Source: a virus. Taken from it: 61,861 nucleotides of DNA. The translations under genes and the position numbers were made by a program. Shown in pieces: positions 7,049-13,250 of the stretch. The DNA lies in IMG/VR virus record IMGVR_UViG_3300042472_000345, positions 1 through 61,861 of that record; one strand, written 5' to 3'. The notes beneath the pieces are model-generated. The model was not told the origin of the DNA. It saw nothing but the letters and a program-made list of their open reading frames with translations, and did no database searches. How positions within the stretch are numbered: position 1 is the first letter of the stretch; every line of letters begins with the position of its first letter.

Positions 7049-7060
7049 TAAACCTTAAAG

Positions 7061-7119
7061 AGGATTAGACATTAATGCTATATTACGACAAAAATTATAG
7101 CATATTGGCAACTAATCCT
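7061..7119 (+). other. Two-tier hairpin in the portal-scaffold spacer
   Basis: AGGATTAG (7061-7068) pairs perfectly with CTAATCCT (7112-7119). Inside it ATGCTATA (7075-7082) pairs perfectly with TATAGCAT (7096-7103), giving two 8-bp helices separated by an internal loop. There is no U-run after it, so it does not look like an intrinsic terminator. It could be an mRNA processing or stability element, and it abuts the promoter described next. Confidence 0.55.
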
Positions 7120-7149
7120 TTGAAATTAAATATTGTTAAATTAGTTTTA
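7119..7149 (+). promoter_or_regulatory. Bacteroidota-type promoter before the scaffold and capsid genes
   Basis: TTTG at 7119-7122, a 19-nt spacer, then TAGTTTTA at 7142-7149 fit the -33/-7 consensus apart from the last base. Transcription would start near 7156, about 30 nt before the ATG at 7187. A dedicated promoter ahead of scaffold and capsid would allow higher expression of these abundant proteins. Confidence 0.45.
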
Positions 7150-7186
7150 CACGTAATATAAACCAAATATTAAACACAACTACATT

Positions 7187-8455
7187 ATGGCTGATAATAC
7201 AGACAACCTGTCTATGGGTAATTTTAGTATCCAAGATACTATGGAGATGGGTATGGGAAATCAGGAATTACTAAATGATTTGTTTTCTCCTGAAACTTCT
7301 ACTTCCAACCCTGAAGATGTCACACCAATCATTAAAGACGCTGAACCTGCTACACCTCCTGCTAAACCAGCAGTACCAAAAGGTAAAGAGATATCACCAG
7401 TTGATGATGATGCTGATGATAAAGAAAAAGGACAATCTCTTATTTCAAACTTCTTAGGTGACAACACTGATGAAGAAGATGAAGATGACGATACACCACC
7501 TGCACCTGTTGCAAAAAATGCACCAACTGATACATCTGATGAAGAAGATGAGGATCCACAAGGTACTCAATTCTCTGCACTAGCAAATGACTTATTCAAG
7601 TTAGGAGTTTTTAATAAAGATGAAGATGACGAAGAAGAACCTATTACAACACCAGAACAATTCTTAGAAAGATTTGAAACTGAAAAGAAAAAAGGAGCTA
7701 CTGAAATGGTTCAAAATTTCATTTCACAATTTGGAGAAGATTATCAAGAAGCTTTTGATGCCATATTTGTAAAAGGAGTTAATCCTAAAGAATACTTTGG
7801 TACATATAACCAGGTGGTTAATTTTGCTGAGATGGATCTCTCAGAAGAATCAAACCAAATAAGAATAATGAAACAAGCATTGGCTGATCAAGGATTTGAC
7901 GCTGATGACATTGATTCAGAAGTTGAAAGACTTCAAAATTATGGTGATCTTGAGAGCGTAGCAACAAAGCATCATAAAGTATTGGTTAAAAAAGAAGCAC
8001 AGAAGTTGGGACAAATGGAAGCTAAGGCTGAACAAGAGTTAAAACAAAAAGCTCAAATTAGAAATCAATATATACAAAATGTTCAAGGTATCCTTGGAGA
8101 AAAATTAAAATCAAAAGAGTTTGATGGTATTCCATTAAACCCAAAATTAGCAACAGAACTACAAGACTTCTTATTAGTTGATAAATGGAAGACAGCATCT
8201 GGAGAAACACTTTCAGATTTTGACAGAACCATTTTAGATCTTAAAAGACCTGAGAATCATGCCATGAAAGTTAAAGTTGGTTTGCTTCTTAAAATCTTAG
8301 AAAAAGATCCAACATTATCAACTATACAAAGAACAGGTGTTAGTAAAAAATCTAACGAGTTGTTTGGAGAAGTTGCAAGACAGGTGACAAAAACAAAAAC
8401 GTCAACTGGTAGTGGTTCAAAAACTAATCCTAATTCGTGGTTCACTAACCTATAA
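7187..8455 (+). CDS. Scaffolding / capsid assembly protein candidate (422 aa)
   Basis: The gene lies between portal and major capsid protein, the standard place of a scaffold. The N-terminal 150 residues are low-complexity and strongly acidic with Asp/Glu runs (DDDADDKE, DEEDEDDDT) and Pro/Ala stretches. Residues 150-390 are helical with coiled-coil character and a charged KKEAQKLGQMEAKAEQELKQKAQ region. The end is basic and Ser/Thr-rich (TKTKTSTGSGSKTN). This acidic N-terminus, helical middle and basic C-terminus is typical of scaffold proteins, whose basic tail binds the capsid shell. No protease motif is seen, so it may exit intact or be cleaved by an unseen protease. The leader shares a motif with the gene at 10246. 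Confidence 0.65.
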   Translation: MADNTDNLSMGNFSIQDTMEMGMGNQELLNDLFSPETSTSNPEDVTPIIKDAEPATPPAKPAVPKGKEISPVDDDADDKEKGQSLISNFLGDNTDEEDEDDDTPPAPVAKNAPTDTSDEEDEDPQGTQFSALANDLFKLGVFNKDEDDEEEPITTPEQFLERFETEKKKGATEMVQNFISQFGEDYQEAFDAIFVKGVNPKEYFGTYNQVVNFAEMDLSEESNQIRIMKQALADQGFDADDIDSEVERLQNYGDLESVATKHHKVLVKKEAQKLGQMEAKAEQELKQKAQIRNQYIQNVQGILGEKLKSKEFDGIPLNPKLATELQDFLLVDKWKTASGETLSDFDRTILDLKRPENHAMKVKVGLLLKILEKDPTLSTIQRTGVSKKSNELFGEVARQVTKTKTSTGSGSKTNPNSWFTNL

Positions 8456-8490: not shown

Positions 8491-10044
8491 ATGAGTATTC
8501 AAACTATCCCAGGGTTAACTGGTTTTACTTACGCTAGAGTAGCCTCTATGGACAAGCGTGCTGTAGGTAAACTTACAGACTCTAACCACTTGGAGTCTTT
8601 TCACTCCACTGAACCAGCTGACTATGATAAAAAAATCATCAGCTTGTACACTCAGAGTTCATTGTACAGCAATGACTTCTTAGACATGATCAACAAAAGC
8701 ACACCTTATTACATTGATAATAATAGTGATGCTTGGAAATGGCAAATTGCTGTTCCTTACAAGTTCCCAAAAATCATTGATATTCCTACTTCTACAGTAG
8801 AGAATAACAAACCAGGGATTGATGGACAAGAATTTACTTTAGTATTAGATACTAATGAGTTCTCTAAAAACGCTATCGTTTCTGTAGGTTCACGTCAGTA
8901 TGGTCCTCGTTTCTATGTAATCAAAGATCCTATTCCATGGAACATGGGTTACTTGTACAGTTTCAACTTAGTAACTGACAATCCAACAATTGATTTTGTA
9001 AACTCTACTTTCTTACAAGTTGGTGTTGAGTTAGAATTGGTTGATGCTGCTATTGGTGAGTTTGACCAAGACTTATTAGGATTGCCTCGTTTAGGTGAGC
9101 AAATCACAATGTTCGAATCTTTAGGTTCTGCATATGGATATGAGCACAAAATCACTGAATGGGCTGATGATAAAATGATGGTTGATGCTTCTGGTAAGCC
9201 TCTTGATATTTTAGTATATGCTCCACAAAGACGTAACCAATTACCTTTAACTCGTAATGATGTTAAATGGGAGCCATTTGTTGAGTTCTGGATGCGTAAA
9301 TCTATGTTGGAATTAAAAGTTAAACGTATGATCTGGGCTAAACCAGGTACAGTTAAATCTGGTGGTTCACAACAAAACTTGAAACGTACATCTGCAGGTG
9401 TTTACCACAGAATGCGTAACAATGGTAACTTAGTACAATATAACAGAGGTGAATTCTCTGCTAACTTGATTCGTTCAGTATTTGGAGATTTATTCTACAG
9501 ACGTGTGGACGTTAAAGATAGACGAGTTAAAATGTACACTAACGAAGCTGGATTCGACGTATTCCAACAAGCTTTGAAAACTGATGCATTAAACTCAGGA
9601 TTAACTTTCATGGCTGACTCTGGAAACAGATACATGCAAGGAGAAGGACAACACATCACTTACAACTTTGCATTTGATGCAATGGTAACTCGTGAGACTG
9701 GTCGTGTTGAATTGATTCACTTGAAAGAATTAGATTTACCACAATCTAACTTAGAGTTTGGACAAAACAAAAAGAGCACTCCAGTATTTATGGTGTTTGA
9801 TGTTTCTCCAATGTCTGATGGTTCAATGGTAAACAACATTCGTGAGGTACGTATGAAAGGTGCGCCTTCTATGACTTGGGGTTATATTGATGGAACTCGT
9901 CACCACTTAGGTTTTGCTAAATCTCAAGGTATGAGCTCTGCTAACAAATTCCCAGGATACGAAATCTGGATGAAAGATCGTTGCGATGTATTCATCGAAG
10001 ACTTATCAAGAACTGTGTTGATCGAAGAAATCCCACAATTCTAA
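8491..10044 (+). CDS. Major capsid protein (517 aa)
   Basis: Position after portal and scaffold, length of about 500 residues and composition fit the HK97-fold major capsid protein of crAss-like phages. The long N-terminal arm (about residues 1-90), the aromatic-rich body and the C-terminal stretch YEIWMKDRCDVFIEDL are consistent, although HK97 folds have no sequence motif that proves it. Codon use differs from its neighbours: arginine is often CGT where most genes here use AGA, and C-ending codons such as AAC and TAC are frequent. This suggests selection for very high expression. It is followed by a strongly structured non-coding region. Confidence 0.85.
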   Translation: MSIQTIPGLTGFTYARVASMDKRAVGKLTDSNHLESFHSTEPADYDKKIISLYTQSSLYSNDFLDMINKSTPYYIDNNSDAWKWQIAVPYKFPKIIDIPTSTVENNKPGIDGQEFTLVLDTNEFSKNAIVSVGSRQYGPRFYVIKDPIPWNMGYLYSFNLVTDNPTIDFVNSTFLQVGVELELVDAAIGEFDQDLLGLPRLGEQITMFESLGSAYGYEHKITEWADDKMMVDASGKPLDILVYAPQRRNQLPLTRNDVKWEPFVEFWMRKSMLELKVKRMIWAKPGTVKSGGSQQNLKRTSAGVYHRMRNNGNLVQYNRGEFSANLIRSVFGDLFYRRVDVKDRRVKMYTNEAGFDVFQQALKTDALNSGLTFMADSGNRYMQGEGQHITYNFAFDAMVTRETGRVELIHLKELDLPQSNLEFGQNKKSTPVFMVFDVSPMSDGSMVNNIREVRMKGAPSMTWGYIDGTRHHLGFAKSQGMSSANKFPGYEIWMKDRCDVFIEDLSRTVLIEEIPQF

Positions 10045-10245
10045 TAAAAATAACAGTACTTACTACGCTACCCATTCAGAACAGCGTCCCAGAGTAAGTC
10101 GTAAATCGAAAAGAATTCCCCCCTATCCCCCACTCTCTCCCACCTTGGGGGGAAAACTTTTCAAACAGAATGATGGACTTATGTCGCATTATCCTTCGAT
10201 GGGTACATTCTGCAAAGTATAAACCAATTTTAATTAAACTACATT
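10045..10245 (+). ncRNA. Highly structured non-coding element after the capsid gene (candidate RNA)
   Basis: This 201-nt gap holds three stable helices in a row. P1: 10058-10064 with 10093-10099 (7 bp), continued by 10065-10069 with 10083-10087 (5 bp) across a 5-nt bulge. P2: 10108-10113 with 10157-10162 (6 bp), a 2x2 internal loop, then 10116-10123 with 10147-10154 (8 bp including six G-C pairs); its 23-nt loop is almost all pyrimidine. P3: 10166-10172 with 10206-10212 (7 bp) enclosing a small hairpin around 10175-10194. The P1 loop segment TACCCAT (10069-10075) is also complementary to ATGGGTA (10199-10205), so a long-range contact is possible. It may terminate or protect the capsid mRNA, or act as a free RNA. 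Confidence 0.6.
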
Positions 10246-11217
10246 ATGGGCAAGTTAGGCAAAATCTCTACAATAAAAAGAGACTATTCAAATAGCGCAC
10301 AGTTGCAAACAATGCAAAGTGAACTATCACGAAAAGGTATGACACGTATTCCTGGAACAGGAGTATTTAAATATCCTTACAAAGAGTTAGATGGACAGTA
10401 TAGAACAGGATTAGATCCAAATGCTTCTTATATTAGAAGAATTGCTGATGAAACAGAACGTGAACTAGAAATAGAACGTGTTACAAAACTTCGTCAAAAA
10501 TTAGAAGCTGCATTAGGTGACATTGATCTTGGTCCTCGTTCTAAGTTTTGGAACTATGGATTATCAACATCTACAGATGATCAAACACATGTACAACCTG
10601 TGAAACTATTAGATGGTGATAACTATTATGATCTTATGGTTCCTTTTCAAGAATTAGCATTTTCATGGTTAAGAGTACATCCAACCATTGCAAGTTCTTA
10701 TCAATCTTGGGAAAGAGGAGAATATCCTGCAGAAACACAGTTTTATGTTGTTGATGATGAAATTGAAAATACAATTATATTCAAGAAAAAACAATTGATC
10801 AACAAAGCAATTGTGAAATTTGATTCTATGACTCCTGAGAAGAAACGTAAAGTTGCAAGACTTTTAGGACTTCCAGTTACAGAAGACACTAAAGAAGAAG
10901 TTGTTTACAACCAAGTAGATAACGTTCTTAAACAAGCAGAGTTTAAATCTGGTACATTCCAAGGATTAAATCCTGTAGAAGTGTTTAGTAGGTTTGCTGA
11001 CATGAAAGAAAACTTGTTACATATTAAAGATTTAGTTAAACAAGCAACATCACATTCTATCTACAGAGTGAAACCAAATGGTAGAGTTTATGAAGGAGAG
11101 TATGAAATTGCAGTTGATGAAGAGTCATTAATTAAATTCTTAATTGATGATGATAACCAAGATGATTTAATCACTCTTGAGCAGAAATTAAAAACTAAAA
11201 AACTAGCTTCTATTTAA
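10246..11217 (+). CDS. Virion structural protein, head or connector candidate (323 aa)
   Basis: First gene after the capsid gene and its structured spacer. The N-terminus is basic and extended (MGKLGKISTIKRDYSNSAQ), followed by mixed alpha/beta sequence and a charged helical C-terminal third. No enzyme motif, signal or membrane segment is seen. Crassvirales place head-associated and ring proteins in this interval, so a capsid-vertex, minor head or head-tail connector role is most likely. I cannot name the exact homologue. Its leader (ATAAACCAA, then ACTACATTATGG at the start) is nearly the same as that of the scaffold candidate gene at 7187, which points to shared translational or transcriptional control. 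A hairpin terminator overlaps its stop. Confidence 0.7.
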   Translation: MGKLGKISTIKRDYSNSAQLQTMQSELSRKGMTRIPGTGVFKYPYKELDGQYRTGLDPNASYIRRIADETERELEIERVTKLRQKLEAALGDIDLGPRSKFWNYGLSTSTDDQTHVQPVKLLDGDNYYDLMVPFQELAFSWLRVHPTIASSYQSWERGEYPAETQFYVVDDEIENTIIFKKKQLINKAIVKFDSMTPEKKRKVARLLGLPVTEDTKEEVVYNQVDNVLKQAEFKSGTFQGLNPVEVFSRFADMKENLLHIKDLVKQATSHSIYRVKPNGRVYEGEYEIAVDEESLIKFLIDDDNQDDLITLEQKLKTKKLASI

Positions 11218-13164: not shown

Positions 13165-13192
13165 GTATAATAGTAAGAACTAATAACTAATT

Positions 13193-13234
13193 AAAAAGGG
13201 GAAGGAAGGTTTTAACTTTCTCTTCCCTTTTTTT
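13193..13234 (+). terminator. Intrinsic terminator
   Basis: AAAAAGGGGAAG (13193-13204) pairs, with one bulged G, with CTTCCCTTTTT (from 13222), and a T-run reaches 13234. The loop side contains further GGAAGG/CTTTC pairing. It closes the operon that ends with the polythreonine-tailed virion protein at 12001-13164. Confidence 0.7.
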
Positions 13235-13250
13235 ATTAAAATTAAAAATT

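Follow-up and report, generated by a model that had tools for sequence, protein, structure and literature searches.

A covarying RNA domain with tRNA-like features behind the major capsid gene of uncultured phages

Introduction

The window analysed here, a virus record of 61,861 bases, carries on its plus strand the ORF of a major capsid (head) protein (8491–10044; 517 amino acids; phrog_11589 major head protein, E 3.2e-33), and the next ORF, in the structural gene region, starts only at 10246 (10246–11217, plus strand; 323 amino acids; phrog_16383, of unknown function). The 201 nt between them (10045–10245), here called the capsid gap, raise the question of what a spacer of this length does on the 3′ side of a capsid gene. 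An earlier note had seen in it three helices and a possible long-range pairing, and had guessed at an mRNA stabiliser, a terminator or a free RNA such as a packaging RNA. That proposal is confirmed in part: covariation in relatives gives strong support to a structured RNA 3′ of the capsid gene, and among the guessed functions formation or stabilisation of the mRNA 3′ end is plausible in a modified form, a terminator is unlikely and a packaging RNA finds no support. The crAss-like label given to the virus holds only distantly, by matches of the large terminase (Leptolyngbya phage Lbo-JY46, 40%; Cellulophaga phi17:2 and phi4:1, 32%; gut phages, e.g., cr272_1, 27%).

Results

Fold of the capsid gap

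The spacers of this genome had been called otherwise minimal, which is roughly true, but listed ORFs of the window are also separated by spacers of 86, 112, 117, 138, 138 and 177 nt. The G+C content of the capsid gap is 0.40; that of seven other window spacers of at least 86 nt ranges from 0.21 to 0.42, with six at or below 0.32. Folding of the gap gave a minimum free energy (MFE) of −45.2 kcal/mol against a mean of −31.5 for shuffled sequences (z −3.7) and none of 200 shuffles as good.

Three helical domains follow one another on the plus strand of the MFE fold, each where it had been predicted: D1 (10058–10099), a variable 5′ hairpin domain of 7 bp + 5 bp, also recognised by gap comparison; D2 (10108–10162), a long hairpin of 6 bp + 8 bp with six G-C pairs and a C/U-rich apical loop (10124–10146); and D3 (10166–10212), closed by 7 bp (10166–10172 with 10206–10212). 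This last helix was thought to enclose just a small hairpin; the 7 bp are present, but what they enclose is a three-way junction with a second arm at 10190–10205. The supposed long-range pairing between TACCCAT and ATGGGTA has to be given up: positions 10201–10205 already serve the covarying P3c arm of D3 as its 3′ strand, and by eye the CCCAT/ATGGG pairing shows no change in L003, L004 or the window's own type and is disrupted in L034.

Relatives of the capsid locus

A capsid scan of IMG/VR returned 80 loci with 93.8–100% capsid identity. Together with the window's own locus, the downstream gene was retained in 81 of 81, and the gaps measured 120–689 nt, in 63 distinct sequences. Diverged capsid queries and one isolate phage extended the collection to 307 loci with 183 distinct gaps; many of these loci lie on shared contigs, and counts are hence given per 183 distinct gap sequences, the window's included. 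A DNA search of isolate phages and a capsid-protein scan of bacterial and archaeal genomes gave no lead. The gaps differ much in sequence and mostly have the same fold, composed of variable 5′ hairpins, D2, D3 and a leader AAACCAA...AACTACAT. The capsid protein itself appears to change at an unusually slow rate, being at least 90% identical across relatives against about 59% for the gene at 7187 and about 72% for the next gene.

D1 is replaced by other hairpins, or absent, in relatives. In a subset only, a recurring loop like ACCC/TCCC...AAGAACAG is found in the D1 region (e.g., window 10069–10083; L018, L033, L039 and L048), and in L039 a similar piece reappears behind D3. An extra hairpin of the CAGTGCC...GTGCACT type was noticed between D2 and D3 in L018, L078 and L099 and at the start of the gap in L115.

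Most gaps longer than 450 nt contain an extra ORF behind the RNA, and the one tested (L016, 4781–5098) matches the HNH endonuclease family phrog_2255 (E 5.8e-22), with no Pfam family match. Such ORFs between the RNA and the next gene were seen in gaps of 472–689 nt in L012, L013, L016, L020, L026, L027, L032, L053, L073, L130 (by length only), L135 and L299; those of the long gaps that were read have the leader motif once more after the extra ORFs, and L030, L037 and L064 hold apparent remnants.

Covariation and distribution of D3

D3 is a real, clearly covarying RNA domain; it is carried by a large group of uncultured phages and matches no Rfam family. It is made up of P3, a 7-bp acceptor-like helix (5′ strand 10166–10172, paired with 10206–10212; 97.8% of cells paired), P3b (10173–10189; 90.6%), an arm that is short in this genome and has a bulged G at 10186, and P3c (10190–10205; 93.6%), a T-arm-like arm with the hexaloop UUCGAU at 10195–10200, all on the plus strand. 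Among 97 representatives the bulge column of P3b is G in 90, and the base directly 3′ of P3 (10213, plus strand), placed like a discriminator, is C in all 97.

The covariation looked for in relatives of the capsid gap is present. The first alignment, of 57 sequences (MAFFT) and not fitted to the covariance model, had 91.7% of the cells of the named structure paired and 21 of 22 pairs changed on both sides; its covariation score was 0.605, against 0.185 for shuffles (0/500) and at most 0.157 when slid. The 97 representatives gave 92.9% of cells paired, again 21 of 22 pairs changed on both sides (six of the seven in P3), and a score of 0.600 against 0.173 for shuffles (0/500) and at most 0.108 when slid. 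The first search for D3 used its outer helix and a TT-type loop motif, with 8 of 62 places set by hand, so that P3 and the loop start are partly selected in alignment A1 and the pairing of P3b and P3c is not; alignment A3 was fitted to the covariance model. With 141 G-U cells against 21 A-C cells, the structure is assigned to the capsid strand. The domain also folds better than expected on its own (median z −3.17; below −2 in 88/97).

The covariance model R1, which matches the window at 10163–10213 with 50.6 bits, finds D3 in 160 of the 183 distinct gaps (E ≤0.005; tally compiled from hit lists typed into a script), down to a capsid identity of 58% (L306). The input of the search that gave the 97 representatives was 100 of 119 cluster representatives, 17 having been left out as judged without a clear D3, together with L244 and L297, the latter of which has an R1 match in a separate search. 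Three of the 100 (L091, L092 and L159) have no match at E 0.005. The 97 matches, one per locus, all lie within the gap behind the capsid gene; the 100 loci searched total 785,912 bases and gave no other match at E ≤0.005. Among 27 long records, 22 have a clear single match, one a marginal match elsewhere (E 0.115) and four none; two match places (G001 and G006) were checked arithmetically against the gap, and the others were paired by bit score. Three antisense matches, some 1 kb ahead of the capsid gene on the minus strand (L054 3034–3105, L062 3040–3111 and L138 2019–2090), were set aside as too weak (E 0.006–0.03, 20.8 bits) and are probably due to chance; L054 and L138 are one and the same contig.

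The 23 gaps without an R1 match comprise six from distant relatives (capsid identity 21–42%), seven with an intact or decayed tRNA, four with a hairpin only (L042, L088, L302 and L305), four in which a weak three-way junction was seen by eye (L091, L092, L159 and L244) and two with a reduced structure (L104 and L124). D3 is thus dispensable in places, as the four hairpin-only gaps have neither D3 nor a tRNA.

Scanning the whole window against Rfam gave no match at the gathering score, and a permissive scan of 9900–10400 produced one sub-gathering match (E 7.1), outside the gap. A riboswitch or ribozyme of an Rfam family was rejected on these scans. Among the matches listed from open full-text literature, which takes in only a minority of subscription papers and preprints, none describes this RNA in its title or abstract start.

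Likeness of D3 to tRNA

In a tRNA, five T-stem and seven acceptor pairs add up to 12 nt, and the T loop has 7 nt of the form UUCRANY. The P3c loop of D3 has 6 nt in 96 of 97 sequences, and the letters of these 96 loops are U (95), U (96), C or U (87 and 9), a purine (96), A or G (73 and 19) and U (92), with UUCGAU in 48/97 and UUCAAU in 15/97. From the end of this loop to the end of P3 there are 12 nt in 63/97 and 13 nt in 34/97. By virtue of this ruler of 12–13 nt and the T-loop-like letters, D3 looks like an acceptor stem with a T arm, the third arm apparently standing where a tRNA has its D and anticodon arms. The T-like arm abuts the 3′ strand of the 7-bp acceptor-like stem (97.8% of cells paired in P3 and 93.6% over the 4 bp of P3c; the first search for D3 had partly selected for P3 and the loop start). 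A scan for the acceptor/T-arm stack, which required a TT loop motif, allowed 9–17 bp and preferred long stacks, found 11–13 bp in 122 of the 126 gaps called among the 183, some calls lying outside D3 (L049) or on 7-nt loops. According to the review PMC4919913, the acceptor stem has seven base pairs and RNase P measures the stack of T arm and acceptor stem from the elbow.

The likeness has clear bounds. The loop is one nucleotide shorter than the 7-nt T loop and otherwise alike; a D arm, a 7-nt anticodon loop and a 3′ CCA are absent from D3, which has one further arm with a variable loop. P3 is preceded by A in 84/97 and followed mostly by C, A/T and A. The tRNA family RF00005 has no match in the window and, at E 1, none at the place of D3 in the 22 long records with a clear D3; conversely, R1 has no match at E 1 in L082, an isolate phage with 17 tRNAs. 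By these models, D3 is not a tRNA.

ARAGORN, run on the 97 D3s with 25-nt flanks, called none at default or ps90, and 7, 23 and 35 on the plus strand at the relaxed settings ps80, ps70 and ps60. Ten shuffle sets averaged 0.2, 4.4 and 9.3 calls at these settings (highest 2, 8 and 16), and the minus strand of the D3s gave 0, 3 and 7. Of the plus-strand calls, 7, 22 and 32 end no more than 3 nt from the end of D3.

tRNA genes in the same gap

At default settings ARAGORN found tRNAs in 7 of the 183 distinct gaps: six tRNA-Met(CAT) (L273, L274, L282, L294, L298 and L301/L307) and one with a 6-nt anticodon loop (L115), which folds as a cloverleaf yet is not reported by RF00005. All nine default calls in the 306 loci other than L082 fall inside the capsid gap (seven distinct gaps), and the only calls outside it across the 307 loci are the 17 of L082; the gaps amount to 62,192 of 2,335,863 nt, L082 included. 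Position 1:72 forms a standard pair in none of the six tRNA-Met, which is a mark of initiator tRNA. L300 and L304 hold apparently decayed tRNAs, tRNA-Met being called there only when the threshold is relaxed to a setting that gives 26 calls in 10 sequences and yields many doubtful ones; L096, by eye alone, shows an acceptor-like helix and a T arm with the loop TTCAAAT, read as a decayed tRNA.

In L298, L301 and L273 the tRNA is present and R1 has no match; in L274, L282 and L294, D3 is followed by the tRNA. Intact or decayed tRNAs occur in 7 of 17 ingroup gaps without an R1 match against 3 of 160 with one. In a tree built from 66 concatenated capsid and next-ORF proteins, tRNA states without D3 occupy three or more separate positions (the L298/L301/L300/L304/L096 region, L273 and L115) and the state with both D3 and tRNA in two. 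The tree was made by a quick method and has long branches and several open forks, L298 not surely joining the rest of its group; its row states were set by hand, with the weak junctions of L091, L092, L159 and L244 counted as D3.

The co-occurrence in L274, L282 and L294 means that the tRNAs may be neighbours of D3 rather than substitutes, and the gap could be a shared, permissive insertion spot for tRNAs and HNH genes, with D3 unrelated to tRNA. ORFs were also inserted in the gap, the one tested being an HNH endonuclease; D3 and a tRNA stand together in three gaps; and neither covariance model, R1 or RF00005, detects the other's target. We nevertheless think this improbable, as the tRNAs concentrate in gaps without a match (the independent events are few) and the ruler, the loop and the relaxed tRNA finder independently point to a tRNA arm.

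Another alternative is that D3 is released as a small, stable RNA acting in trans, either as a tRNA mimic on translation or a host enzyme, or as a packaging RNA. Its compact fold, the single clear copy in 22 of 27 long records, the tRNA-like geometry and the initiator-type tRNAs in the same place all agree with this. Action in trans, however, would not need the position behind the capsid gene that all 97 matches keep, and D3 was lost in several lineages and has no Rfam family match; we consider such an RNA very improbable. The packaging RNA of the earlier note has no support: Rfam offers no match, and several lineages are without D3 or have a tRNA instead.

A whole-record scan with RF00005 gave matches over the cut-off in 17 of 30 records, and arrays of 7–22 are present in a few. 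G008–G010, G012, G013, G024 and G027 each have, elsewhere in the record, an RF00005 match of 103–138 nt; these exceed a normal tRNA and perhaps contain an insertion or a long variable arm.

The hairpin upstream of D3

The hairpin nearest to D3 on its upstream side lies 2–7 nt from P3 in 87/97 and has 12–20 bp in 93/97; in L048, L274 and L282 this nearest hairpin is an inserted one, not D2. The apical loops of 93 kept hairpins, four of the 97 rows having been dropped from this count, consist of C to 51% and of G to 3%. CCTCC or CCACC, similar to the anti-Shine-Dalgarno stretch of 16S rRNA, occurs in 32 of these 93 loops. MAFFT and RNAalifold on 56 D2 hairpins gave no consensus pairs, and D2 is therefore described from single-sequence folds and spacing.

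An intrinsic terminator had been one of the guesses for the gap. D2 is followed by AAA and D3 by CAAAGTA, with no U tract, and a pattern scan gave no terminator-like site in 10045–10245, a scan that is insensitive to bulged stems and overlooks a clear T-run hairpin at 13165–13250. A G+C-rich hairpin directly before a U tract was thus not encountered in the gap, and the terminator was rejected. In the distant relatives L084–L087 (about 40% capsid identity) the gap holds a strong, simple hairpin instead, and in L084 the scan reports a terminator-like site.

D2 and D3 together could also be a passive 3′ stabiliser against 3′ to 5′ exonucleases with no enzyme-specific cut, the tRNA-like shape being a compact, nuclease-resistant RNA. 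The 60 nt upstream of D3 fold strongly (median z −4.36; 89/97 below −2), a D2-like hairpin is kept despite the loss of D3 in L042, L302 and L305, and a capsid mRNA requires high expression. Left unexplained are the ruler of 12–13 nt, the UUYRR loop, the C after P3 in 97/97 and the result of the tRNA finder; moreover, the tRNAs found in the same place are excised from transcripts, not left in. On balance, passive stabilisation seems to us fairly unlikely.

The leader of the next gene

Between D3 and the next gene lies the conserved leader AAACCAA...AACTACAT (10221–10244, plus strand), whose two motifs occur together in the window only here and at 7160–7185. ACCAA is found at most 25 nt from D3 in 80/97. 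The R1 match ends 20–39 nt before the downstream ORF in 77/97, and this spacing would suit a D3 that serves as leader element of ORF 10246–11217, e.g., as a ligand- or protein-binding translation switch. The same leader also precedes the gene at 7187, however, where R1 has no match; the distance to the downstream ORF is at least 350 nt in 11/97, the cases with inserted ORFs; and tRNAs can replace D3, which has no Rfam family match. A leader function of D3 is therefore quite improbable.

The window gap with the second leader (7049–7186) contains a hairpin with z −3.3 and −3.5 in two runs. Several relatives have a conserved TTAATGCTATATTA stretch in the gap upstream of the gene at 7187, and this gap may be a promoter or an initiation signal.

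Discussion

A model for the 3′ end of the capsid mRNA

The reading that we prefer, with confidence evenly balanced, is that D2 and D3 form a tRNA-like processing signal at which RNase P/Z would cut, leaving the capsid mRNA to end in D2. Its starting points were read directly from the alignments and scans: the fold, covariation, strand, position and single copy of D3, the lengths of its loop and ruler, and the tRNAs found beside it or in its stead. What we infer from them is that cleavage occurs, by which enzyme, and how mRNA levels respond. Processing and protection by a hairpin are suggested by the combination of a strong hairpin and a tRNA-like stack a few nucleotides later, between genes and with no U tract.

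In this model, the gap would be the 3′ untranslated region of the capsid gene within a longer mRNA and would have two working parts. D3, with its acceptor-like helix of about 7 bp stacked on a T-arm-like hairpin and a third arm replacing the D and anticodon arms, would present a ruler of about 12 bp that host tRNA-maturing enzymes could recognise and cut, most likely RNase P on the 5′ side; the 3′ side would perhaps be the target of RNase Z or exonucleases. The capsid mRNA would then end a few nucleotides past D2, which would block 3′ exonucleases, and the downstream mRNA would begin with its own conserved leader. The outcome would be a separate, stable capsid mRNA, with transcription continuing into the genes behind. 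In some relatives an initiator-type tRNA gene, or a decayed tRNA, may do the same job.

The terminator-like hairpin in this slot of distant relatives suggests that the slot serves 3′-end formation of the capsid mRNA. More tentatively, and with somewhat less than even confidence, we propose that a widespread lineage of uncultured phages swapped its capsid terminator for a hairpin plus a tRNA or a D-armless mimic, that RNase P (and Z) of the host makes the 3′ end, and that tRNA, decayed tRNA and mimic are stages of a single replacement still to be seen in relatives. If true, the end of a phage capsid mRNA would be made by tRNA processing and not by termination, and the relatives would offer a natural series from a real tRNA to a minimal mimic, showing what RNase P needs in vivo.

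Comparison with known systems

According to PMC11143913, the substrates of RNase P include phage RNAs (the phage M3 RNA and the phage C4 antisense RNA), T4 gene 32 mRNA and other mRNAs, among them polycistronic operon mRNAs, as well as the tRNA-like ends of plant viruses. These are likewise phage or mRNA structures processed by RNase P; the passages on them mention neither conservation behind a capsid gene nor a place shared with tRNA genes, and D3 differs also in having no Rfam match.

In outline, D3 resembles the D-armless tRNAs, e.g., the truncated mitochondrial tRNA-Ser, with an acceptor-like helix, one long arm, a T-like arm by the 3′ acceptor strand and no D arm. It is unlike them in its 6-nt loop and in having no conserved anticodon loop, no CCA and no RF00005 match.

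T-phi of phage T7 is an intrinsic terminator behind the capsid gene. The gap RNA shares with it the place behind a highly expressed capsid gene and, in our model, would likewise allow a partial uncoupling from downstream genes; it differs in having no U tract, and it is in L084–L087 that a simple hairpin, terminator-like by scan in L084, is found instead.

A parallel to the proposed mechanism is the tRNA punctuation of mitochondrial polycistronic transcripts. Titles and abstract starts among the matches listed for tRNA punctuation and phages had nothing on phage gene expression. The phage setting sets the present case apart, as do an element that in most gaps is no tRNA and the strong hairpin immediately upstream of it; alike in both is a tRNA or tRNA-like fold between coding regions, the excision of which would free the flanking mRNAs.
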